NCBI RefSeq assembly: GCF_021401125.1
Contig: NZ_JACBFQ010000014.1
Span: forward strand, 62,001 to 126,000
Length of the DNA stretch: 64,000 bases
Reading direction: 5' to 3'
Source: Xanthobacter sp. NM-59
GTDB taxonomy: Bacteria; Pseudomonadota; Alphaproteobacteria; Rhizobiales; Xanthobacteraceae
Under the pieces are notes generated by a model. That model did no database searches and had not been told where the DNA came from. It worked only from the letters and a program-made list of their open reading frames with translations. Every line of letters starts with the position of its first letter. Position 1 is the first letter of the stretch. A program made the translations under genes and the position numbers. Below, piece by piece: positions 5,796 through 64,000 of this stretch.

Positions 5796-5857
5796 CAGCG
5801 GCACCTCTGGCGCCCAATCAAGGAGTGTCAGGCGATTAGACGGGATCGGGGCGATGG

Positions 5858-6484
5858 TCAAGATTCAGGGGCCGCCCGCAGCACCCCATGCAACAGGTTG
5901 TCGAGCATTCCCGCCAGCAGTTCCTCCTCCGGCGCGGAGAGGAACGCGGAGCAGGTGATCTTGAGGCTGGCAAGGCCATGGAGCAGCACCCACAGGCCGG
6001 TCGCCAGGCTCTCCGGCTGCGCCCCGGCGCGCAGGCGTCGGGCGGCGGCGAGCTCCGCAAATACGCCCGCCAGCAGGGCAAAGGCGGCCGCCCCCGTCTC
6101 GTCCTTGCCACCGAGGGCGCTGGCGGCAAAGCCCGGCTCCATGAAGATCAGGCGATAGGTTTCCGGCTCCTCTCGGGCGAACTGCACATAGGCCCGGCTC
6201 AGCGCGCGAAGGCGGGCCAGCGGGTCTGCTTCACACCCCGCCTCGGACAGGCGGGCATGAAGGGAGCGCATACCTGCCTCGCCCAGTTCGCGGGCAATGG
6301 CCTCCCGGCATTCGAAGTGCAGGTACAGGGCCGCCGGTGAATAACCCGCCTGCTGGGCGATCCGCCGCATGGTGAGCGCCGCGAATCCCTCATCGAGAAC
6401 GATGCGCCGGGCCGCCTGCAGGATGCGCTCGCGGGCATCCTCCTTCCGGCGGGCACGGGGGCTGGGGTTTTGATTTTCGTCCAT
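5858..6484 (-). CDS. TetR/AcrR family transcriptional regulator
   Basis: A 208-residue one-component repressor. The N-terminal helix-turn-helix is typical of the TetR family: RERILQAARRIVLDEGF, then MRRIAQQAGYSPAALYLHF (about residues 20-60). The C-terminal ligand-binding half resembles TetR_C/WHG-type domains (LRALSRAYVQFAREEPETYRLIF). It is divergent from the epimerase gene at 6563. A palindromic operator lies between them, so it probably represses both itself and that gene. The ligand is unknown. Confidence 0.9.
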   Translation of the reverse strand: MDENQNPSPRARRKEDARERILQAARRIVLDEGFAALTMRRIAQQAGYSPAALYLHFECREAIARELGEAGMRSLHARLSEAGCEADPLARLRALSRAYVQFAREEPETYRLIFMEPGFAASALGGKDETGAAAFALLAGVFAELAAARRLRAGAQPESLATGLWVLLHGLASLKITCSAFLSAPEEELLAGMLDNLLHGVLRAAPES

Positions 6485-6500
6485 GGGCGCAGCAAGCCTG

Positions 6501-6543
6501 TTGACGTGAACGGCGTTTAGTTTATGAACATCGTTCAGTGAAC
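6501..6543 (+). promoter_or_regulatory. TetR operator overlapping the epimerase promoter
   Basis: TGAACATCGTTCA (6525-6537) is a palindrome of five-base arms around ATC. It overlaps a second one, GTTCAGTGAAC (6533-6543). A likely promoter for the plus-strand gene, TTGACG (6501-6506) and TATGAA (6523-6528) with 16 bases between, runs into the first palindrome. A repressor bound here would block RNA polymerase. The site lies 40 bases from the TetR start codon and 20 from the epimerase start. Confidence 0.6.
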
Positions 6544-6562
6544 AGTGGTCAGGAGCGGTTCT

Positions 6563-7552
6563 ATGACCGACGCGTCCTCCATGCAAGCACACGCGCCTGC
6601 CCGCATCGGCCTCGTCGGCGGCACCGGCCCCATTGGCGCCAGCATCGGCGCGGCGTTTACAGCCACCGGCACGCCCTTCGCCGTGATCGGCCGCAGCCTC
6701 CCCTCCATCACCGACCATTTCCGTGGCGTGCCGGGGGTGGAAGCGCGGCAGTGGGACCCCGACGACCCGGCGCGCATCCGCGCTGCCGTGCGCGGACTCG
6801 AAACGCTGGTCTATATGGTGGGTGTTCCCTATGACGCGTTCCGCCTGCATCCAGACCTGATGCGCCGCACCCTGGAGGCCGCCGAGGCGGAAGGCGTGCG
6901 CCGGCTGCTTCTCATCGGCACCGCCTACCCCTTCGGGCGGCCGCGCGCAGCGCGGGTGGACGAGGGCCATCCTCGCGAGCCGCACACCTTCAAGGGGCGC
7001 ATGCGCAAGGAACAGGAAGACCTGGTGCTGGAGGCCGGCGCGCAAGGCCGCATCGCCACCGCCATCCTCCGCCTGCCCGACTTCTACGGGCCGCAGGTGG
7101 AGCGCAGCTATCTGGCCGACATCTTCGCCGCGGCGGCCGCCGGGCGCCGGGCCAAGGTCATCGGCCCCATCGACACGCCCCATGAATTCGTCTTCGTGCC
7201 CGATGTGGGGGAGGTGGTGCGCCGGCTGCTGATGCGCGAGGACGCCTTCGGCCGCGCCTTCAATCTGGGCGGCGCCGGCACCATCACCGTGCGGCAGGTG
7301 GCGGAACAGGCCTTCATGCTGGTGCGCAGCAATCCCAGGCTGTTCGTCGCCAACAGGCTCATGCTGCGCCTGGCGGGCCTGTTCGACCCGCTGATGCGCG
7401 AGCTGGTGGAGATGCATTATCTGATGACCGACCCGGTCATCTTCGACGATACCGCCCTCACCCAGCTCCTCGGGCCGCTGACGAAGACCTCCTATGCGGA
7501 GGGCATCGCCCGCTCCATGGATGCCGCCCGGCGGGCCCTGCGCCCGGCCTGA
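6563..7552 (+). CDS. NAD(P)-dependent epimerase/dehydratase family protein
   Basis: A 329-residue extended short-chain dehydrogenase. The nucleotide-binding motif IGLVGGTGPIGASI is near residues 15-28, followed by segments typical of NAD-dependent epimerases (LETLVYMVGVPY, LLLIGTAYPFG, ILRLPDFYGP and FNLGGAGTITVRQVAEQ). The usual YxxxK catalytic pair is not clear: the matching region reads HTFKGRMRKEQE, with Phe where Tyr is expected, so the chemistry is uncertain. The ATG at 6563 is preceded by AGGAG, whereas a GTG at 6545 is not. The divergent TetR gene and its operator suggest control by a small molecule. Confidence 0.75.
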   Translation: MTDASSMQAHAPARIGLVGGTGPIGASIGAAFTATGTPFAVIGRSLPSITDHFRGVPGVEARQWDPDDPARIRAAVRGLETLVYMVGVPYDAFRLHPDLMRRTLEAAEAEGVRRLLLIGTAYPFGRPRAARVDEGHPREPHTFKGRMRKEQEDLVLEAGAQGRIATAILRLPDFYGPQVERSYLADIFAAAAAGRRAKVIGPIDTPHEFVFVPDVGEVVRRLLMREDAFGRAFNLGGAGTITVRQVAEQAFMLVRSNPRLFVANRLMLRLAGLFDPLMRELVEMHYLMTDPVIFDDTALTQLLGPLTKTSYAEGIARSMDAARRALRPA

Positions 7553-7561
7553 GCGGCGCCG

Positions 7562-8737
7562 TCAGGCGCCGTCGCTGGGTGCGCCGCTGGCGCCCTGGCC
7601 GGTGGCGCCCTGGAAGAACTCCTTCACCTTGGAGAAGAAGCCCGTGGACTCGGGATGGGTCTCGCCGGAGCATTCCTTGTCGAACTCGGTGAGCAGCTCC
7701 CGCTGGCGCTTGGTGAGCTTCTGCGGGGTTTCCACCACCACCTGCACATACATGTCGCCGAAATTGCGGGTGCGCAGGACCGGCATGCCCTCGCCCGTCA
7801 GGCGGAAGCGCTTCTGCGACTGGGTGCCCTCGGGAATCTTCACCTTGGTCTTCTCACCGCCAATGGTGGGCACCTCCACCTGCCCGCCGAGGGCGGCGGT
7901 GACCATGGAGATGGGCACGCGGCAATACAGATCCGCCCCCTCGCGCTGGAAGAAGGGATGGGGCTCCAGCGACAGGAAGATATAGAGGTCGCCCGCCGGC
8001 CCGCCGCGCACGCCGGCCTCGCCCTCGCCGCCCAGGCGGATGCGGGTGCCGTCTTCCACGCCCGCGGGAATCTGCACCGAAAGGGTGCGTTCGCGCGTCA
8101 CCCGGCCGGCGCCGCCGCAGGAGCCGCACGGATCCTCGATGATGGAGCCGCGGCCCTGGCAGCTCGGGCAGGTGCGCTCCAGGGTGAAGAAGCCCTGGGC
8201 ATGGCGGATCTTGCCCGCGCCACCGCAGGTGCGGCAGGTCTTCGGGCTGGTGCCAGCCTTGGCGCCGCTGCCGTTGCAGGCCTCGCAGGTGACGGAGGTG
8301 GGAATCTTGATCTGCGCGGTCTTGCCGGAGAACGCCTCTTCAAGCGTGATCTCCATATTGTAGCGCAGGTCGGCGCCGCGCCCGCGCGACTGGCCACCAC
8401 GGCTGCCGCCACCGCCGCCGCGCCCCATGGCGCCGCCGAACAGGTCGTCGAAGATATCCGCAAAGGACGAGGCGAAATCGGAGCCGAAGCCGGGGCCCCC
8501 GCCGCCGCCATTCTCGAACGCGGCATGGCCGAAGCGGTCGTAGGCGGCGCGCTTCTGCGGATCCTTCAGGATCTCGTAGGCTTCGTTGACTTCCTTGAAG
8601 CGGATTTCCGCGTCCGCGTCATTCTGGTTGCGGTCCGGGTGCCACTTCATGGCCAGCTTGCGGTAGGAGGCCTTCAGCACCGTCTCGTCGGCGCCGCGGT
8701 CGCAGCCGAGGATCTCGTAAAAGTCGCGCTTGGCCAT
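7562..8737 (-). CDS. dnaJ: Chaperone protein DnaJ
   Basis: A 391-residue Hsp40 co-chaperone that delivers unfolded substrates to DnaK and stimulates its ATPase. It has an N-terminal J domain with the HPD tripeptide in MKWHPDRNQ, a Gly/Phe/Arg-rich linker, four zinc-binding CxxCxGxG repeats ([32 protein letters not shown]) and the C-terminal substrate-binding domain. The ATG at 8737 gives [11 protein letters not shown]; a GTG two codons upstream is also in frame. It lies downstream of dnaK on the same strand with about 280 bases between them. Confidence 0.98.
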
Positions 8738-8981
8738 GCTCACTCTTCACCCGCCGCAACCGGCCCTGGTCCGTTTTCACCCCGCTCCGCCGGCGCCGAA
8801 GCGACCGGGAGAGGAACCTTGGGCGAAGCCTCCGGCTGAATGCGCCGGATGTGCGGGGCGCTCGCAGCCGGGCGCCGGGAACAGGCGGTCACGCTATCTG
8901 TCGCCGCATCCCGGCATCCCCTGGGGGCCGGTTCCATGCAGCGGTTGAAACAACACGCTCCGCCACGGTGGGCGGAAGGAA

Positions 8982-9009
8982 GAAGCGGGGGGGGGGGGCC
9001 CGCCGCTTC
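8982..9009 (-). terminator. Hairpin with a 12-G run between dnaK and dnaJ
   Basis: GAAGCGG (8982-8988) pairs with CCGCTTC (9003-9009), just after the dnaK stop. The loop holds a run of 12 G on the plus strand (8987-8998), read as C in the dnaK transcript. There is no T run after the stem, so it may work as an mRNA end-stabiliser or partial attenuator. It would explain lower dnaJ than dnaK expression, but that is inference. Confidence 0.4.
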
Positions 9010-9013
9010 ATGA

Positions 9014-10915
<1,902 letters not shown>

Positions 10916-55226: not shown

Positions 55227-55880
55227 TTATTCCGCCGCCGCGGGGAATTCCGTCACCGGGGGCTCGGAGGATGGCCTGCCGTTTCGCGCCCACGCCAGGC
55301 GGGACTCACCATCTTCCGCCCCAAAACACACGTGAAAGTCATCGCACTCCGCGCACACCGGCGCCGTGCACAAGGTGAAGCCTTCCGAACCGCAGACCAT
55401 GCGATAGAGAAACTTCTTCCACTTCATGTCGTTGCGGTTCTTTTGCGCCAGCGGAGCGAAGTGGCGCTTCATCAGCTCGGAGAGCTCGCCGCGATTGCGC
55501 AGCCCCAGATCCTGCCACAAATGGTGGGGCGACTTGCAGCGCCGGGCAATCATTGCCCCCAGCAGCTGCTCAAGAGCATCGCCACTCGTGCAATACATGC
55601 CCAGAATATCGCGGATGGACTGCTCTTCCTTGTCCACGTCGGGAGCGGATGCCGCGCACCACTTTTCAGCCTCCGCCCCCAGGTGCGGAAAGGCAAGGCC
55701 GAGCAGCCGGCGCAGCGCGCCCCCTGAGAGCCCGACGCCCTGCAGCGGGCCCTGTCCGGATGCGCCCCCCTCCACCACGGCAAGGGAGAGGATCGCGGCG
55801 ACGACATGCCGGTCGAAAGCGTCGCAATCGACGGGACCGGGCGTTGCGAGGAGCTGGTCGTAGACCTCTTCTGCTGTCAT
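55227..55880 (-). CDS. nifQ: Nitrogenase molybdenum donor NifQ
   Basis: A 217-residue protein that donates a Mo-Fe-S precursor to the FeMo-cofactor pathway. The family motif CX4CX2CX5C is at Cys171, Cys176, Cys179 and Cys185 (LCTAPVCAECDDFHVCF). Upstream, CKSPHHLWQDLGLRNRGELSELMKRHF is also conserved. The ATG at 55880 has GGAG upstream. It is the last gene of the nif operon, 16 bases downstream of the ferredoxin gene. Confidence 0.95.
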   Translation of the reverse strand: MTAEEVYDQLLATPGPVDCDAFDRHVVAAILSLAVVEGGASGQGPLQGVGLSGGALRRLLGLAFPHLGAEAEKWCAASAPDVDKEEQSIRDILGMYCTSGDALEQLLGAMIARRCKSPHHLWQDLGLRNRGELSELMKRHFAPLAQKNRNDMKWKKFLYRMVCGSEGFTLCTAPVCAECDDFHVCFGAEDGESRLAWARNGRPSSEPPVTEFPAAAE

Positions 55881-55896
55881 CGCCGCTGCTCCTTGA

Positions 55897-56190
55897 TCAG
55901 GCCGCCTTGTCCATCCCGTGGATCTGGCAGTTGGCGGGACACACTCGGGCGCAGGCACCGCAGCCGATGCAGGCCCCCGAATCGTTCATCACCATCACCT
56001 TCTTCTCGACGTCATCATCCTCGTCATCATCGAGGCTGACCACTTCGCCGTCCTCGTTGATACCTTTGAGTGTCATCACATCCCGGCCGCAGACCTTGTA
56101 GCAGCGCCCGCAGCCGATGCACTTCCCGGCATCGATGTCGAGCAGGTAGTCTGGCTGCCAAGCTCGACCATCTCGGGTTTCGTTAGACAT
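55897..56190 (-). CDS. fdxB: nif-specific ferredoxin III (FdxB), 2[4Fe-4S]
   Basis: A 97-residue ferredoxin. Cluster ligands are Cys24/27/30/34 (CIGCGRCYKVC) and Cys74/77/80/84 (CIGCGACARVC), with Cys88 nearby. The linker contains an acidic run (SLDDDEDDDVEK). The protein probably supplies electrons to cofactor assembly or nitrogenase reduction. It sits between the DUF683 gene and nifQ, its usual place in alphaproteobacterial nif clusters. Confidence 0.95.
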   Translation of the reverse strand: MSNETRDGRAWQPDYLLDIDAGKCIGCGRCYKVCGRDVMTLKGINEDGEVVSLDDDEDDDVEKKVMVMNDSGACIGCGACARVCPANCQIHGMDKAA

Positions 56191-56458: not shown

Positions 56459-56932
56459 TCAGTAGTTGGCCACTTCCGGGAACTTCTTGATCATCTCGAC
56501 GCCGGAGGTGACATACTTCATGCCCTCTTCCCCGAGCTTGCCGAGATTGTCGAAGCCGAAACGGTGTATGTCGCGCAGCTGCTTGTTCACCACGATCAGC
56601 CGGCCGCCGATAAGCACCATGCGGCCGAAGCCTTCGTGGCTCATCTTCAGCATGGGGCTGATCATCACGCGGGTCTCGCGCTCGATGAGCAGGCACACGG
56701 CGTTGAAGAACAGCTCCAGCCGCCAGATGGTCTCCGGATCGGGATCTCCGATGATCGGCAGCGCGCGGCGCGCTTCCTTGTCGATGATGTAGGGCTCGAT
56801 TAGGTCGAGATCCTTCTTGCCTTCCCAGGCGCCGTGGGTGTCCTGGGCGCGCCAGACCTTGATGAGCTCCTTGACGAAGGGCGACTCTTCCGCGGGAACC
56901 GTTGCGACGGCGGCTTCAGCTGCTTCGGCCAT
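56459..56932 (-). CDS. NifX-associated protein (DUF269)
   Basis: A 157-residue protein: [82 protein letters not shown]. It matches DUF269, found next to nifX in diazotrophs and thought to help FeMo-co trafficking; no enzyme activity is known. The ATG at 56932 has GAGAGG upstream. Confidence 0.93.
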
Positions 56933-57043
56933 GGGGGCGTCCTCTCGAGCATTTTCGGGCGGCCGCAATTGCGCCGCGTGAAGGAAAAGCATCAAGCCGC
57001 GATGCCGCGGGCTTGACGCGAACGACCGGGGGCGAAAGACGCC

Positions 57044-57439
57044 TCAATCCTCGAAATCGAAGCTGCGTTCCTTGCCCTTGTTCAGGGCCTTGCGCAGCCA
57101 CGGCGGGGGAGCGCCCTTCAGAACTTCCGAAAGCTTGTCGATCAGATCGGAGATCTCTTCCGGCTGGTTCACCTTCATGGGGTGGATATTGTTCGCCACC
57201 ACACGCGCCGCGCCCGAGCCGCCGATGGCGGCCACGTAGAGAATCGCACAATCCTTGATGGCCTCGATCTTCGGGGCCAGCTTGTCCTCGTTGCCGTCTT
57301 CCTTCAGGTCGCCGTCGAACTCGACGGATTCGATGAAGTGGTGCTCTTCCGGGTTCACCTCATAGATGGCGATGTGCTTCGCCCAACCGAAATGAGCATC
57401 GACGCGCTTCATGTCCTGCGTAGCAAATGCGACTTTCAT
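57044..57439 (-). CDS. nifX: FeMo-cofactor carrier NifX
   Basis: A 131-residue single-domain protein that binds NifB-co or the VK cluster and moves it towards NifEN. It begins MKVAFATQDMKRVDAHFGWA, typical of NifX/NifY/NafY domains, with AILYVAAIGGSGAARVVANNIHPMKV near the middle. The gene lies 24 bases downstream of nifN. Confidence 0.95.
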   Translation of the reverse strand: MKVAFATQDMKRVDAHFGWAKHIAIYEVNPEEHHFIESVEFDGDLKEDGNEDKLAPKIEAIKDCAILYVAAIGGSGAARVVANNIHPMKVNQPEEISDLIDKLSEVLKGAPPPWLRKALNKGKERSFDFED

Positions 57440-57463: not shown

Positions 57464-58867
57464 TTAGTGATGGGTCGCTGCAGAAGTCGTGCCAGTTTCG
57501 TGGCCATGGCCGTCCGCATTCCACGGGTCGCGCCAGGTTTCCGGGGTCGGCTCGTGGTTCTCCTCGTGATCCTTGATGACGAGGTTCGCGAGATTGAAGA
57601 TGAGGTCCCGCGTGCCGCGATAGCCCACCGAGAGCTGGTGGCCCGCGCCAAGCCGGTCGAACATGGGCATGCCGATGCGGTGGAACGGAATCTTCAGCCG
57701 TTCCGCGCCCTGGCGGCCATGGGAATGGGTCATCAGCAGGTCGCAGCCCCGCTCCTTGGCCAGGGTCTCCAGATCTTCCAGATCGCCAATCAGCACTTCC
57801 TCGGTGGGCAGCTTTTCGAACACCGGGGACTGCGTCGTCGTCACGGCCGCGACAATGTGGGTGCCCATCTCGTGCAGCATGGAGCCGATGTCGAACAAAA
57901 GGTCCGGCTCGGCACCGATGGCGAGCTTGCGCCCGCCGAGGTGGAAGTGGGCATCCAGCATCGCGTCCACGAGCTGGCCCCGCTGCCGGCGATACTTGCG
58001 CGGCACCGGCTTTCCCGACACCTCGCTGAGGAACATGATGAATTGGTCATTGGGCGCAAGCCCGCACAGGCGCTCGAAGACCCGCCCCCTGGAGCCGGTC
58101 TTCTTCTCCATGGCATCCACCGCCCGGCGCATCTGCGCGCCGATGCCGATGGTCCAGGCCGCCTCACCCATGGTCGCGATTTCCTCAACGCCGATGCCGC
58201 CGATGGTGGTCGGCGTGAAATCGTCGGGAATGTGACCATCCAGAGAGCCCGCCAGATCCGGCAGGAAGGACGGGGCCAGCCCGAAATCCTCAATGATGGT
58301 GCGCAGCTCGTCCAGGTCGCCCGGCGTCATGTGGCAGCCGGGCAGCACATTGATGCGCTTCGTGTCCTTGGCGGCCCCGGGCTCCGGCGTCTTCACCAGG
58401 GACTCGACCATCTTGGCGACGGTCTTCTCCCAGCCGTCCTGGAACGCATCCTTAAAGTCGGGCGTCGAGACATAGACGAGCGGGAAGTCCGCGAGCTGCG
58501 GATACTTGGCGCGGATGAGCTTGATATAGCCATCCACGTCGTCGCCCTTGGTCTCCGTGACACCGGTGGAGCAGATTCCGATGATCTCGGGATTGGTGCG
58601 ATTGTAGATGTTGAGAATCGCCTGCTCGACATTCTCAAGGCCGCCCAGCACCGTGGCCACCTCGCTCATGGCGGTGGTCTGCAGCGGAATGGCTTCCTTG
58701 AAGTGGCGCACGAACAGCACCAGGCCGAACGAGGTGCACCCCTGGGAGCCGTGCAGCAACGGCATGCAGCCGCGCAGCCCCATGAACGCCAAGGCGCCGC
58801 CGATGGGCTGGCTCATCTTGAGCGGATTGACCGTGCAGGCCTTCTTGGAGGGAACGAGCTTCGCCAT
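57464..58867 (-). CDS. nifN: FeMo-cofactor scaffold subunit NifN
   Basis: A 467-residue partner of NifE in the scaffold that completes the FeMo-cofactor with Mo and homocitrate. NifK-like features are present: VNPLKMSQPIGGALAFMGLRGCMPLLHGSQGCTSFGL and ICSTGVTETKGDDVDGYI. The C-terminal tail is His-rich (NADGHGHETGTTSAATHH), slightly unusual. It follows nifE by ten bases. Confidence 0.96.
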   Translation of the reverse strand: MAKLVPSKKACTVNPLKMSQPIGGALAFMGLRGCMPLLHGSQGCTSFGLVLFVRHFKEAIPLQTTAMSEVATVLGGLENVEQAILNIYNRTNPEIIGICSTGVTETKGDDVDGYIKLIRAKYPQLADFPLVYVSTPDFKDAFQDGWEKTVAKMVESLVKTPEPGAAKDTKRINVLPGCHMTPGDLDELRTIIEDFGLAPSFLPDLAGSLDGHIPDDFTPTTIGGIGVEEIATMGEAAWTIGIGAQMRRAVDAMEKKTGSRGRVFERLCGLAPNDQFIMFLSEVSGKPVPRKYRRQRGQLVDAMLDAHFHLGGRKLAIGAEPDLLFDIGSMLHEMGTHIVAAVTTTQSPVFEKLPTEEVLIGDLEDLETLAKERGCDLLMTHSHGRQGAERLKIPFHRIGMPMFDRLGAGHQLSVGYRGTRDLIFNLANLVIKDHEENHEPTPETWRDPWNADGHGHETGTTSAATHH

Positions 58868-58877
58868 CTTGCCGCCC

Positions 58878-60785
58878 TCACTCCGCCGCCACCAGCGCGT
58901 CGGGCGCCGAGCCGCCGTTCACGCTGGACAGGATATCGCCCACCCGCTCCGCGCAGCTGCCGCAGCCACCGGAAGCCTTGGTCTGCGTCTTCACCTGCTC
59001 GACCGTCGTCAGGCCCTGCGCGCGAATGACATCCTCAATGGTGCCCACATCCACGCTCATGCAGTTGCAGACCTTCTTCGCCCGGCGCGCGGCCTCGGCG
59101 GCCACCGGATCAATGATCACCTCCGCCGCGGCCGCCGCGGCCACGCCCATGTTCTCGAAGATCTCTTCGATGCGGACCGAGCAGGCCCCGCAGCCCCCCG
59201 AGGCATTGGTGTGCTGACGCACGCCCTCCACTGACGTGAGACTGTGCGCCGTGATGGCATCCTCGATGGTGCCCAGATCCACACTCTTGCAATTGCAGAT
59301 CTTCTTGGCGCGCCGCGCCGCTTCGGCGGCCACGGGATCAGCAGCGAGGGCGGCGGCTTCCGCCTCCATCTGCGCGATGGCCTTGGCCTGCCAGGAATCC
59401 TCGGGATTATCCCACGGGGCGGGCTTACGCACCTGCTCCCAGATGGGATTGTAGAGCGCCTTGTCGATCTCCTCGACCAGCTTCACCATGCCCACATAGC
59501 CCATATAGGCGTGGTGGCGCTCCTGGTTGATGTCGAGCCAGGGCATGTTGGCCTTGAGCGCGATGAACTGCGAGCGGCCGCCCGAGAGCATGATGTCCGC
59601 TTTCGCGTCCTTCAGCATCTTGTACATTTCGCGGGGCTTCATGTCGTCGATCATGTGGGCGTCCTGCCCCATGAGCTCCTTGATGCGCTCCTTGTCTTCC
59701 TTGGTGGACTTCTTCACGGAAGTACCGACCAGTTCAAGGCCCGCCTCCTGGAGAGCCGCGACGACCGACCAGGACTTCACACCGCCGGTAATCAGCAGCA
59801 CCTTCTTGCCCTTGAAGCGAGGCTTATACTTGGCGATGGCTTCCCAGGCCTTCTTCTCCTCGCGAGCGATGAGCGCCTCGGTGCGGTCCATCAGCTCCGG
59901 ATCGGCGCCCTTCTCGATCAGCATCCGCGCGATTTCGCGCAGGGAGTCCGAGGAATCCTCGATGCCGTAGAAAGAGCCCTCGAAGAAGGGAATGTCGTAG
60001 CGCTCCTCCATCTTGCGGGCCACGTTGATCATGGCCTTGGAGCACACCATCATCGCCGCCTTGGCGCGATGCGAGGAGGCAACGTCCTTATACTTCGCGT
60101 CACCTGAGATGCAGGCCAGGACGCGGATGCCGAGTTCGTCCAGCAGCGGCTTCACCTGCCACAGCTCACCCGACAGATTGTATTCGCCGATGATGTTGAT
60201 GTCGTACGGCGTGGTGTATTCCGGCTCTTCGGTACCGATGACATGGTCGAGGATGGCTTCGCCGGCAAGCTTGTTGCCGAGATTCTTCGGGCCCACGAAG
60301 CCGGGCGAGTTCACCGGGATCACGGGCTTGCCGAACTTCTCCTTCGCCGCCTTGCAGACCGCGTCAATGTCGTCGCCGATCATGGCGGGCACGCATGTCT
60401 GGTAGACGAAGATCGCCGGCGGATCGTACTTCTCAATGATTTCCTTGATGGACTTGAACAGGCGCTTCTCGCCGCCGAACACCACGTCGGTTTCGTTGAT
60501 GTCGGTGGTGAAGCCCGTGCGCCAGATGTTCGAGCCCGAGGACTTCGCGCCGCGATTGTCCCAGGAATTACCCTCGCAGGCGATGGGGCCGTGCACGAGG
60601 TGAGCGACGTCCGTGAAGGGCTGGAGCGCAATCTTTGCGCCGTCGAAGGCGCATCCGCCGGCGGCACCGCCGGGTTGCAGCTGCTTGGTGCAGCCCTTTT
60701 TCTTTTCGGCTTCAGACTTGTTCTGGTTCTTCGCGCATCCCGGTTCGTTGAAGACGGCCTGAATCGTGTTCGACAGCGAGCTCAT
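58878..60785 (-). CDS. nifE: NifE fused to two tandem BFD-like [2Fe-2S] domains
   Basis: A 635-residue scaffold subunit. The first 470 or so residues are normal NifE: KGCTKQLQPGGAAGGCAFDGA, HGPIACEGNSWDNRGAKSSG, FVYQTCVPAMIGDDIDAVC, and the C-terminal WEQVRKPAPWDNP. Azotobacter NifE is about 475 residues. The extra C-terminal part has two copies of a 76-residue unit, each with a CxC-x32-CxxC pattern: Cys497/499/532/535 and Cys573/575/608/611. This is the signature of bacterioferritin-associated ferredoxin (BFD) domains, as in the middle of NifU. GGAGAG precedes the ATG. The domains might deliver electrons or clusters to NifEN; that is inference. Confidence 0.95.
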   Translation of the reverse strand: MSSLSNTIQAVFNEPGCAKNQNKSEAEKKKGCTKQLQPGGAAGGCAFDGAKIALQPFTDVAHLVHGPIACEGNSWDNRGAKSSGSNIWRTGFTTDINETDVVFGGEKRLFKSIKEIIEKYDPPAIFVYQTCVPAMIGDDIDAVCKAAKEKFGKPVIPVNSPGFVGPKNLGNKLAGEAILDHVIGTEEPEYTTPYDINIIGEYNLSGELWQVKPLLDELGIRVLACISGDAKYKDVASSHRAKAAMMVCSKAMINVARKMEERYDIPFFEGSFYGIEDSSDSLREIARMLIEKGADPELMDRTEALIAREEKKAWEAIAKYKPRFKGKKVLLITGGVKSWSVVAALQEAGLELVGTSVKKSTKEDKERIKELMGQDAHMIDDMKPREMYKMLKDAKADIMLSGGRSQFIALKANMPWLDINQERHHAYMGYVGMVKLVEEIDKALYNPIWEQVRKPAPWDNPEDSWQAKAIAQMEAEAAALAADPVAAEAARRAKKICNCKSVDLGTIEDAITAHSLTSVEGVRQHTNASGGCGACSVRIEEIFENMGVAAAAAAEVIIDPVAAEAARRAKKVCNCMSVDVGTIEDVIRAQGLTTVEQVKTQTKASGGCGSCAERVGDILSSVNGGSAPDALVAAE

Positions 60786-60898
60786 GGATCTCTCCTTCAA
60801 CGTCGGGGCTGTGTCAGATCGCGGAAAATTTCGGATGGTCTCCCTGTCGGGTCGGCCCGGGTGGGGCTCCCGGATCGGCTCGCGGTCACGCAACGAAG

Positions 60899-60932: not shown

Positions 60933-62492
60933 TCAACGAATGATGTCGAAGGAGTAGTCGGTCTTGGCCGGAACGATGGTGTTCTGGTCGATGGTGTCGA
61001 AGATCTTGTCCAGGATGGTGATGAGCACGTTCATGCCACCCTGATAACCCCACACCGGACGGCGGTGATGGTGGTGACGGTCGAAGATCGGGAAGCCGAT
61101 GCGGATCAGCGGGGTGCCCGTGTCGCGCTCCAGATACTTGCCGTAGGTGTTGCCGATCAGGAAGTCCACCGGCTCCGTGAAGAGCAGGGACCGCATGTGC
61201 CACAGGTCCTTGTTGGGATAGGCCTTGCAGTTGCCGCCGAAGGGCGAGCTGTCGAACAGCTCCTGCATCTTGGCCGCCCACTTCGGGCCACCGTTGGTGG
61301 ACAGCACGGTGGTGGGCTCGGCGCCGAGCTCCAGCAGGAAGGCGGCCAGGCCGTAGCACAGGTCGGGATCGCCGTAGATGGCGAACTTCTTGCCGTGGAT
61401 GTGGGCGGACGAGTCGGCGATGGCGTCAACCAGGCGGCCGCGCTCGCGGGCGAGTTCCTCAGGGATCTCCTTGCCGGTGATGCGGGAGACTTCCATCAGG
61501 AACTTGTCGGTGCCAGCGACGCCGACCGGGTGGTTGAACGCAACCACTTCGTGACCATGACCCTTGATGAAGGGCAGGGTCTTCTCGGTGCAGTATTCCT
61601 GCATGGAGATGGTGGCCTTCGCGTGGATGGCGTTGGCCGCCTCTTCCAGCGTGGTGCCGCCGTCATACATGCGGAACTCGCCGTCGGTGGGGGTGTCCCA
61701 CACGTCGGAATTGTCACCGAGAATGGTGTACTCGACGCCCATCAGGTTGAAGATGCGCTTGATCTCGCGGATGTTGCCGACGGTGTAGCCGTCGAAGCCG
61801 CCGAGGAAGTTGATCTTCTCGTTGGGCTCGCGCACCAGCTTGTCAGTGGTGCCGGCCTTGCCGTCCCAGAAGTGCTCGAGCACGCCCTTCATGGCATTGT
61901 CGTAGCCGGTGATGTGGCTGCCGACGAAGGCCGGGGTGTGGGCGAAGGGAACGTCATACTCGGCCGGAACCGAGCCTTTTTCCTTCGCGGTCTTGATGAA
62001 CGCGTTCAGGTCGTCGCCGATGACTTCCGCCATGCAGGTGGTGGAGACGGCGATCATCTTCGGCTTGTACATGTTGTAGGTGTTGGCGAGGCCGTCAATC
62101 ATGTTGTTGAGGCCGCCGAACACCGCCGCGTCTTCCGTCATGGACGAGGACACGCAGGAGGTGGGCTCCTTGAAGTGGCGCGAGAAGTGCGAGCGATAGT
62201 ACGCCACGCAGCCCTGCGAGCCGTGCACGAACGGGATCGTGCTCTCAAAGCCGACCGCGACGAACACCGCGCCGAGCGGCTGGCAGGCCTTGGCCGGGTT
62301 CACGGTCAGGGCTTCGCGGGCAAAGTTCTTTTCCTGATACTCAGGGGTCTTGGCCCACTCGCGGATCCGCTCCACTTCCGCGGGATCGCGGGGGTTCTCG
62401 AACATCCGCTTCTTGTTGGCCAGCATCTGCTGGTACTCGGGACCACGGAAAAGCTCGAAGTGATCGAGCACGTTATCTGCATTTTGTGGCAT
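60933..62492 (-). CDS. nifK: Nitrogenase MoFe protein beta subunit NifK
   Basis: A 519-residue subunit. P-cluster cysteines are Cys70 ([10 protein letters not shown]), Cys95 ([11 protein letters not shown]) and Cys153 ([12 protein letters not shown]), the same numbers as in Azotobacter. The residue at 99 is Tyr (AYYRS) and that at 188 is Ala (HTPAFVGSH), where Azotobacter has Phe and Ser; see the findings. [20 protein letters not shown] is normal for the family. It lies downstream of nifD, with a hairpin between them. Confidence 0.98.
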
Positions 62493-62602: not shown

Positions 62603-64000
62603 TCACTCGGCGGCGAGCATGGTCGGCTTGGACGGAGACTTCTTCCACGGGGTGTTGGTCATCTTCCACACCGGAGAGTTGATCGCCATGTCCATGTCGC
62701 GGGCGAAGATGGCGAAGCCGTCATAGCCGTGGTACGGGCCCGAATAGTCCCAGGAGTGCATCTGGCGGAAGGGCACGCCCATCTTCTGGAAGACGTACTT
62801 TTCCTTGATGCCGGAACCGACCAGATCGGGCTGGATCTTCTCGACGAACTTCTCGAACTCGTAGCCGGTCACGTCGTCATAGATGATCGTGCCATCCTTG
62901 ACGTAGTGCTGGGCGGTGCGCTGATAGTCGTCGTTGTGGGCGAATTCGTAGCCGGTGCCGACCACTTCCATGCCCAGGTCCTCATAGGCGCCGATGACGT
63001 GACGGGGACGCAGGCCGCCCACGTACAGCATCACGGTCTTGCCTTCGAGGCGCGGACGATACTTCGCGATGACCGCGTCCATCAGCGGCTGGTACTTGGC
63101 GATGACGCGCTCAGCACCTTCCTTGATCTTGTCGTCGAAGTAGCTGGCGATCTTGCGCAGCGACTCGGCGATCTTGGACGGGCCGAAGAAGTTGTACTCG
63201 CACCACGGAATACCGAACTTCTCTTCCATGTGCCGCGAGATGTAGTTCATCGAGCGGTAGCAGTGGAGAACGTTCAGCTTCGCCTTGGGGGTGTTCTCCA
63301 GCTCGGCGAGCGAGCCGTCACCCGACCACTGGGCGATCACGCGCAGGCCCATCTCCTCGAGGAGGATACGGGAAGACCAAGCGTCACCACCGATGTTGTA
63401 GTCGCCGATGATGGCGACGTCATAGGGGGTGGACTCGAAGGGGGCGACCCGATTCGGATCCTGCTTGTCGAAGATCCAGTCACGGATGGCGTCGTTGGCG
63501 ATGTGGTGACCCAGGGACTGGGACACGCCACGGAAGCCTTCGCAACGCACCGGGACGATGGTCTTGCCGTCGTATTCCTTGGACTTCACCTTCGACACGG
63601 CTTCGATGTCGTCGCCAATGAGGCCGATCGGGCACTCGGACTGGACGGTGATGCCGTTATTGAGGGGGAAGAGCTCCTGGATTTCGTCCATGATCTTCGC
63701 GAGCTTCTTGTCGCCGCCGAAGACGATGTCCTTTTCCTGGAAGTCGGAGGTGAACTGCATCGTCACGAAGGTGTCGATGCCGGTCGTGCCGATATAGTAG
63801 TTACGGCGCGCCGCCCAGGAATACTGGCCGCAGCCAACCGGGCCGTGGGAGATGTGGATCATGTCCTTGATGGGACCCCACACCACACCCTTGGAACCGG
63901 CATACGCGCAGCCACGGATGGTCATCACGCCCGGAATGGACTTGATGTTGGACTTCACGCCGCAGTCGGACTTACCGGCTTCGTGCACGTTCAGGTGCTT
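62603..64000 (-). CDS. nifD: Nitrogenase MoFe protein alpha subunit NifD (5' end missing)
   Basis: The last 465 residues of NifD; the frame is open to the window edge, so roughly the first 30 residues lie outside. FeMo-cofactor and P-cluster residues are in [41 protein letters not shown] (with a conserved Gln and Cys), [18 protein letters not shown] (with the conserved His) and [16 protein letters not shown] (homologue of the homocitrate-region His). nifH is expected just outside the window. Confidence 0.98.

Follow-up and report, generated by a model that had tools for sequence, protein, structure and literature searches.

What does the NifE protein of Xanthobacter sp. NM-59 carry behind its core, how did this tail arise, and what could it do for NifEN? 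The gene lies in the window, i.e. the whole stretch of 64,000 nucleotides that was analysed, where the minus-strand order is nifD, nifK, nifE, nifN, a nifX-type gene, a DUF269 gene, a 4Fe-4S dicluster ferredoxin gene, and nifQ:

62603..64000, minus strand, nifD (Pfam Oxidored_nitro and gene position; the frame continues beyond the window end)
60933..62492, minus strand, nifK (TIGR01286, 839.4 bits, cut-off 427.3)
58878..60785, minus strand, nifE, 635 amino acids from the ATG at 60785 plus the stop codon (NCBIfam TIGR01283)
59421..60785, minus strand, NifE core, residues 1–455 (Pfam Oxidored_nitro at 45–444)
59340..59420, minus strand, Ala/Glu-rich linker, residues 456–482, mostly helical in the predicted model
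59112..59339, minus strand, unit 1, residues 483–558: repeat linker and BFD domain 1 (BFD at about 59151–59300; Cys 497, 499, 532 and 535)
58881..59111, minus strand, unit 2, residues 559–635: repeat linker, BFD domain 2 and C terminus (BFD at about 58926–59072; Cys 573, 575, 608 and 611)
57464..58867, minus strand, nifN (TIGR01285, 589.7 bits, cut-off 326.8), beginning 10 bases past the nifE stop
57044..57439, minus strand, nifX-type gene (Nitro_FeMo-Co)
56459..56995, minus strand, DUF269 gene (domain match)
55897..56190, minus strand, 4Fe-4S dicluster ferredoxin gene (domain match)
55227..55958, minus strand, nifQ (Pfam NifQ)

The 635-residue protein scored 669.9 bits against TIGR01283, the NifE model (cut-off 505.1), and its neighbours are those expected of nifE, with nifK upstream and nifN downstream. 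In the alignment, the ATG at 60785 gave a start like the MSS.S.T start seen in relatives; a longer frame is possible from the TTG at 60893. The closest named NifE relative was that of Xanthobacter agilis (94%), and six further genomes of the same genus followed at 88–89%. A C-terminal ...AAE ending recurs in many NifE proteins, with or without a BFD tail and also after degeneration of the BFD motif, as well as in the NifD of the window (62603–63988).

The first-pass annotation had described a NifE frame whose tail holds two BFD-like units. Its reading frame, coordinates and eight tail cysteines all proved correct in our ORF and motif check, and Pfam confirmed the domain assignment. The tail contains two complete Fer2_BFD domains, each with a CxC-x32-CxxC motif. 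Over the whole protein, Fer2_BFD matched in two stretches (105.4 bits, cut-off 26, E 1.9e-30); taken unit by unit, PF04324 yielded 61.1 and 60.7 bits against the same gathering cut-off of 26, and the CxC...CxxC cysteines that mark this family are present. When the tail was shuffled 20000 times, no shuffled version contained two such CxC-x32-CxxC motifs. The NifU model TIGR02000 (scaffold, BFD, Nfu) stayed below its cut-off on NifE (78.1 vs 273.3 bits), and its best stretch covered model positions 132–187 only; the Bfd model NF007803 was also below its cut-off (20.8 vs 75 bits). From the domain family we infer that each BFD unit binds one redox-active [2Fe-2S] cluster, with CxC-x32-CxxC as the site.

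The predicted fold of the tail matches that of Bfd, as the Fer2_BFD assignment would require. The AF2 model was built from 37 aligned sequences, with a mean pLDDT of 79.7 and a pTM of 0.43. Foldseek placed it on the Bfd structures 6e6r and 4e6k with probability 1.00, TM by target of 0.86 and 0.83 and an rmsd of 1.3, at weak E values of 0.24 and 0.42; over the Bfd crystal structures as a whole, the probability was 0.99–1.00 and the TM by target 0.80–0.86 (weak E, 0.24–0.61). A sequence search of solved structures also returned Bfd as the best match for the tail (E 0.3), and solved NifE chains aligned only up to about residue 476. This likeness raises the option that the tail is a Bfd-like iron-mobilising module, which would obtain iron from bacterioferritin in the vicinity of the cofactor scaffold. 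We regard this as highly improbable. The fold is shared, but Bfd is a stand-alone protein, and against Bfd-size proteins the tail had a mean score of 21.4 bits and about 26% identity, as compared with 49.1 bits and 38% against NifU. The NifE domains also fell outside the Bfd branch in a BFD tree, and the genome encodes a separate 98-residue BFD protein, which no NCBIfam model matched at E 1e-10.

The two units begin with DPVAAEAARRAKK at residues 483 and 559, a spacing of 76 residues, which bears out the shared linker repeat claimed earlier. The description of the units as near-copies holds for the 13-residue repeat linker, which is identical between them, but not for the rest: 41 of 65 residues agree, and nucleotide identity is 70%, with 52% at third positions. 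A related DPxxAE..RR stretch stands ahead of the single BFD in most aligned relatives. Together with the identical linkers, it suggests that the duplication probably took in the linker along with the domain, and we consider a linker-plus-domain duplication the likely origin of the pair. Over linker plus domain, unit 1 had 77% identity with the one BFD that a Methylocystis NifE carries, compared with 65% with unit 2.

Both units carry signs of constraint. In an alignment of 10 Xanthobacter rows, two of them duplicates of others, every row retained all eight tail cysteines, and the pN/pS values over these rows were 0.08 for the core, 0.20 for the linker, 0.16 for unit 1, 0.43 for unit 2, and 0.80 for the stretch between. 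Unit 2 is thus under constraint at the sequence level, though this is weaker than in unit 1. Its faster evolution would suit a mainly passive duplicate, serving as spacer or dosage while unit 1 alone does the work, as would the fact that 47 of the 60 BFD-bearing NifE proteins in our tree set make do with one unit. Such a passive role seems to us somewhat unlikely. The value for unit 2 is still lower than that of the spacer, and all four of its cysteines are intact in every tandem gene of these two samples, 13 from the genus and six from the Beijerinckia family.

The pair is typical of the sampled genus and present in one further family; it is not order-wide. NifE was found in 13 of 14 genomes of the genus sample, and all 13 had the tandem BFD. 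In the source family sample, 40 of 149 genomes had a NifE match, of which seven were tandem, 15 single (two of them with a CC variant), and 18 without BFD. In the sample of the Beijerinckia mobilis family (NifE in 27 of 149 genomes), the best copy was tandem in six, single in 13, and without BFD in eight. The NifE match extended beyond residue 540 in two of 15 NifE-bearing genomes of the class sample and in five of 46 of the phylum sample. Eighty named loci, biased to close relatives, comprised six tandem, 37 single, 26 CxC..CC, five motif-less and six tail-less forms. Four plasmid records matched the tail, and one of them is annotated as nifE (Bradyrhizobium BWA-3-5). A recent copy within the species was considered and rejected, as the pair stands in every NifE-bearing genus genome and its units are only 65% alike. 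The first-pass annotation had called the pair unusual, and lineage-typical rather than novel if most NifE proteins of the order carried it; the pair turned out to be typical at genus level and not at that of the order, given the six of 27 in the Beijerinckia family.

A single BFD on NifE is, by contrast, a published feature, and exactly one was present on 47 of the 108 proteins in our NifE core tree set (BFD on 60, none on 48). A 2011 paper, in its accessible text, reports a BFD on NifE of A. amazonense, Bradyrhizobium, Xanthobacter and Azorhizobium (PMC3169532). The single-BFD proteins of A. amazonense, Bradyrhizobium and Azorhizobium represent the same fusion, with one unit instead of the two found here, and in the relatives compared here a similar linker leads up to the first CxC at about residue 497, as in our protein. 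Xanthobacter is named there as a BFD carrier, and that portion of the text makes no mention of two copies. We found no description of two BFD domains in NifE in the open-licence literature, a scope that leaves aside the supplementary domain figure of the same paper. The single-form fusion is already known, and the doubled form is new as far as this literature goes. Second, divergent NifE-like genes of 50–52% identity and without BFD tail were seen in one genome of the genus Xanthobacter (L206:1465–3060; G918 C2:108744–110102), where the L206 gene exceeded the NifE cut-off with 621.7 bits, and in three Beijerinckia family genomes (L234, L235, and L236).

The proposed count of BFD copies per clade was taken on the NifE core tree. 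This 108-row tree was calculated with a quick method. It drew on 42 of the 80 named loci and on 38 of 49 NifE-bearing genomes newly identified in the class and phylum samples; 10 of these 38 (G538, G547, G550, G564, G589, G593, G600, G616, G630, and G707) have no row in the tree. Also outside it are G500 (= L186), G544, G553, G556, G567, G583, G603, G609, G620, G721 and G833, as well as the family genomes G074 and G096; some organisms are present twice, and the row pairs L008/L066, L012/L037, L077/L080 and L164/L190 are identical. All 60 BFD-bearing proteins fell into one 70-row clade (SH-aLRT 95), which also holds 10 BFD-less rows. The core tree, on which this reading is based, points to a probable single gain of the BFD by the common ancestor of one clade of proteobacterial NifE. 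The tandem genes occupied two separate places, Xanthobacter and Beijerinckiaceae. Behind these may stand two duplications, or one followed by later losses or exchange, and the unit trees do not differentiate between these histories. AU tests did not reject a clade of the Xanthobacter units E1 and E2 (p = 0.085 and 0.157 in two unit trees), of the Beijerinckiaceae units E1 and E2 (p = 0.094), of E2 from both groups (p = 0.105), or of Xanthobacter E1 with all single units (p = 0.198). Of the internal duplication claimed earlier, the copying of linker plus domain thus stands as likely; a duplication private to the genus was neither shown nor rejected.

Two candidates were compared as the source of the domain. 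In a 119-row, 54-column BFD tree, from which 17 of 136 rows (CC-type NifE units) were dropped and four CC-type rows kept, the NifE and NifU domains shared one branch (82/100) apart from the others; the unit tree contains no CC-type rows. A clade of the NifE domains with the first BFD of NirB was not rejected (AU p = 0.103). The best-scoring profile for the NifE domains (n = 76) was NifU in 42 cases, the first BFD of NirB in 26, and a NasA-labelled one in eight, where the own-genome NirB is the one NirB identified by model (TIGR02374) and all remaining labels of NirB, NasA or Bfd are presumed or judged from length. On average, the NifE domains were 37.8% identical to NifU and 39.4% identical to the first BFD of NirB. 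We slightly favour the NifU central domain as the source, with the first BFD of NirB as the alternative. The NifU domain is likewise a nif-linked CxC...CxxC BFD, but it lies between the scaffold and the Nfu domain, unlike the NifE tail. NirB resembles NifE in having two BFDs in tandem; however, the second of these has diverged, with a mean of 11.2 bits and 24% identity against the NifE domains.

The kinship with NifU allows a further account, in which the redox task of the NifU central domain passed to the BFD of NifE, leaving NifU free to be reduced to its Nfu part. The shared branch in the BFD tree is in keeping with it. The source genome had no NifU over the cut-off in the profile search; it encodes a 115-residue Nfu-type protein directly ahead of nifS, with nifB nearby (L196:5433–5780, 5806–7014, and 8591–10153), and this short protein matches the NifU model at 215–290 only, while NifS and NifB at this locus are over their cut-offs. 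Short NifU is also reported for A. amazonense in the accessible text of PMC3169532, so the same pairing of short NifU and BFD-bearing NifE occurs there. Across the 108 genomes, 51 of the 60 with a BFD-bearing NifE lacked full NifU, and 23 of the 48 with a BFD-less NifE had it; in these counts G089 was scored as full NifU with a split match, the larger part of which (199.3 bits) is under the cut-off, and some missing NifU among the named loci may be gaps, as the completeness of those genomes is not given. The association has exceptions on both sides, since nine of the 108 genomes have both BFD-bearing NifE and full NifU and 25 have neither, Niveispirillum L104 and L105 being of the latter kind. 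In ten searched genomes outside the tree, NifU stayed below the cut-off and the NifE match reached no further than residue 469, which makes them look like further cases of neither; an independent-pairs test gave p = 1, with too few informative pairs for significance. Overall, we consider such a replacement unlikely.

In the reading we prefer, FeMo-cofactor maturation on NifEN would be served by the tail as a tethered one-electron relay with two [2Fe-2S] clusters; we rate the chances of this reading as about even. Electrons from a ferredoxin or reductase would pass through the tail to a reductive maturation step on NifEN. The target could be the insertion of Mo and homocitrate with NifH, or re-reduction of the NifEN clusters. 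Xanthobacter and some members of the Beijerinckia family would have gained their second cluster when linker plus domain was duplicated, once or twice. The product of the 4Fe-4S dicluster ferredoxin gene in the same gene run is a possible electron partner. In the own-genome NirB (L003:199–2685; TIGR02374 over its cut-off), two BFDs separate the reductase part from the nitrite reductase part, and this layout offers a precedent for a tandem BFD relay. In the accessible parts of the cited work, the NifU cluster is said to be a possible supplier of electrons (PMC8593673), and in vitro maturation on NifEN was carried out with NifH, MgATP and dithionite (PMC9571451). By analogy with these systems, electron supply to NifEN by the tail, one of the two roles first suggested, is plausible, and Fe-S supply is the less favoured rival. 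Against the relay stand the 48 of 108 NifE proteins without BFD and the fact that a reductase for this maturation, NifH, is already known (PMC9571451). The tail is likely an aid rather than a necessity, because many NifE are tail-less and many Bradyrhizobium sites are altered. If the tail does carry electrons, NifEN has an electron entry besides NifH, which could help explain why many such bacteria lack full NifU and would bear on the choice of NifEN variants for transfer to other hosts.

The altered sites are confined to one genus among the 80 named loci. The 26 CxC..CC tails (L057, L059, L061–L065, L067, L075, L081, L083–L095, L097, L102, and L103) are all from Bradyrhizobium and keep four cysteines with changed spacing in place of CxC..CxxC. 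The five loci that have lost the motif (L106, L108–L110, and L112) are also Bradyrhizobium. These tails suggest that the usual cluster site is not needed in those bacteria, and they form a natural comparison set. Many of the strains with CC-type or motif-less tails are nodule symbionts, and among the Bradyrhizobium with the motif, several live freely or are photosynthetic; the tandem-tail fixers have a free-living aerobic lifestyle. A combined scenario would join these points: the redox domain of NifU moved to NifE, NifU then lost its scaffold and BFD, the domain was doubled in free-living aerobic fixers into a two-cluster relay beside NifH, and the site changed or disappeared in Bradyrhizobium living in nodules, where it was no longer needed. 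We judge this chain of events, taken as a whole, to be decidedly unlikely. CxC..CC tails were also seen in two genomes of the family sample (L022 and L023).
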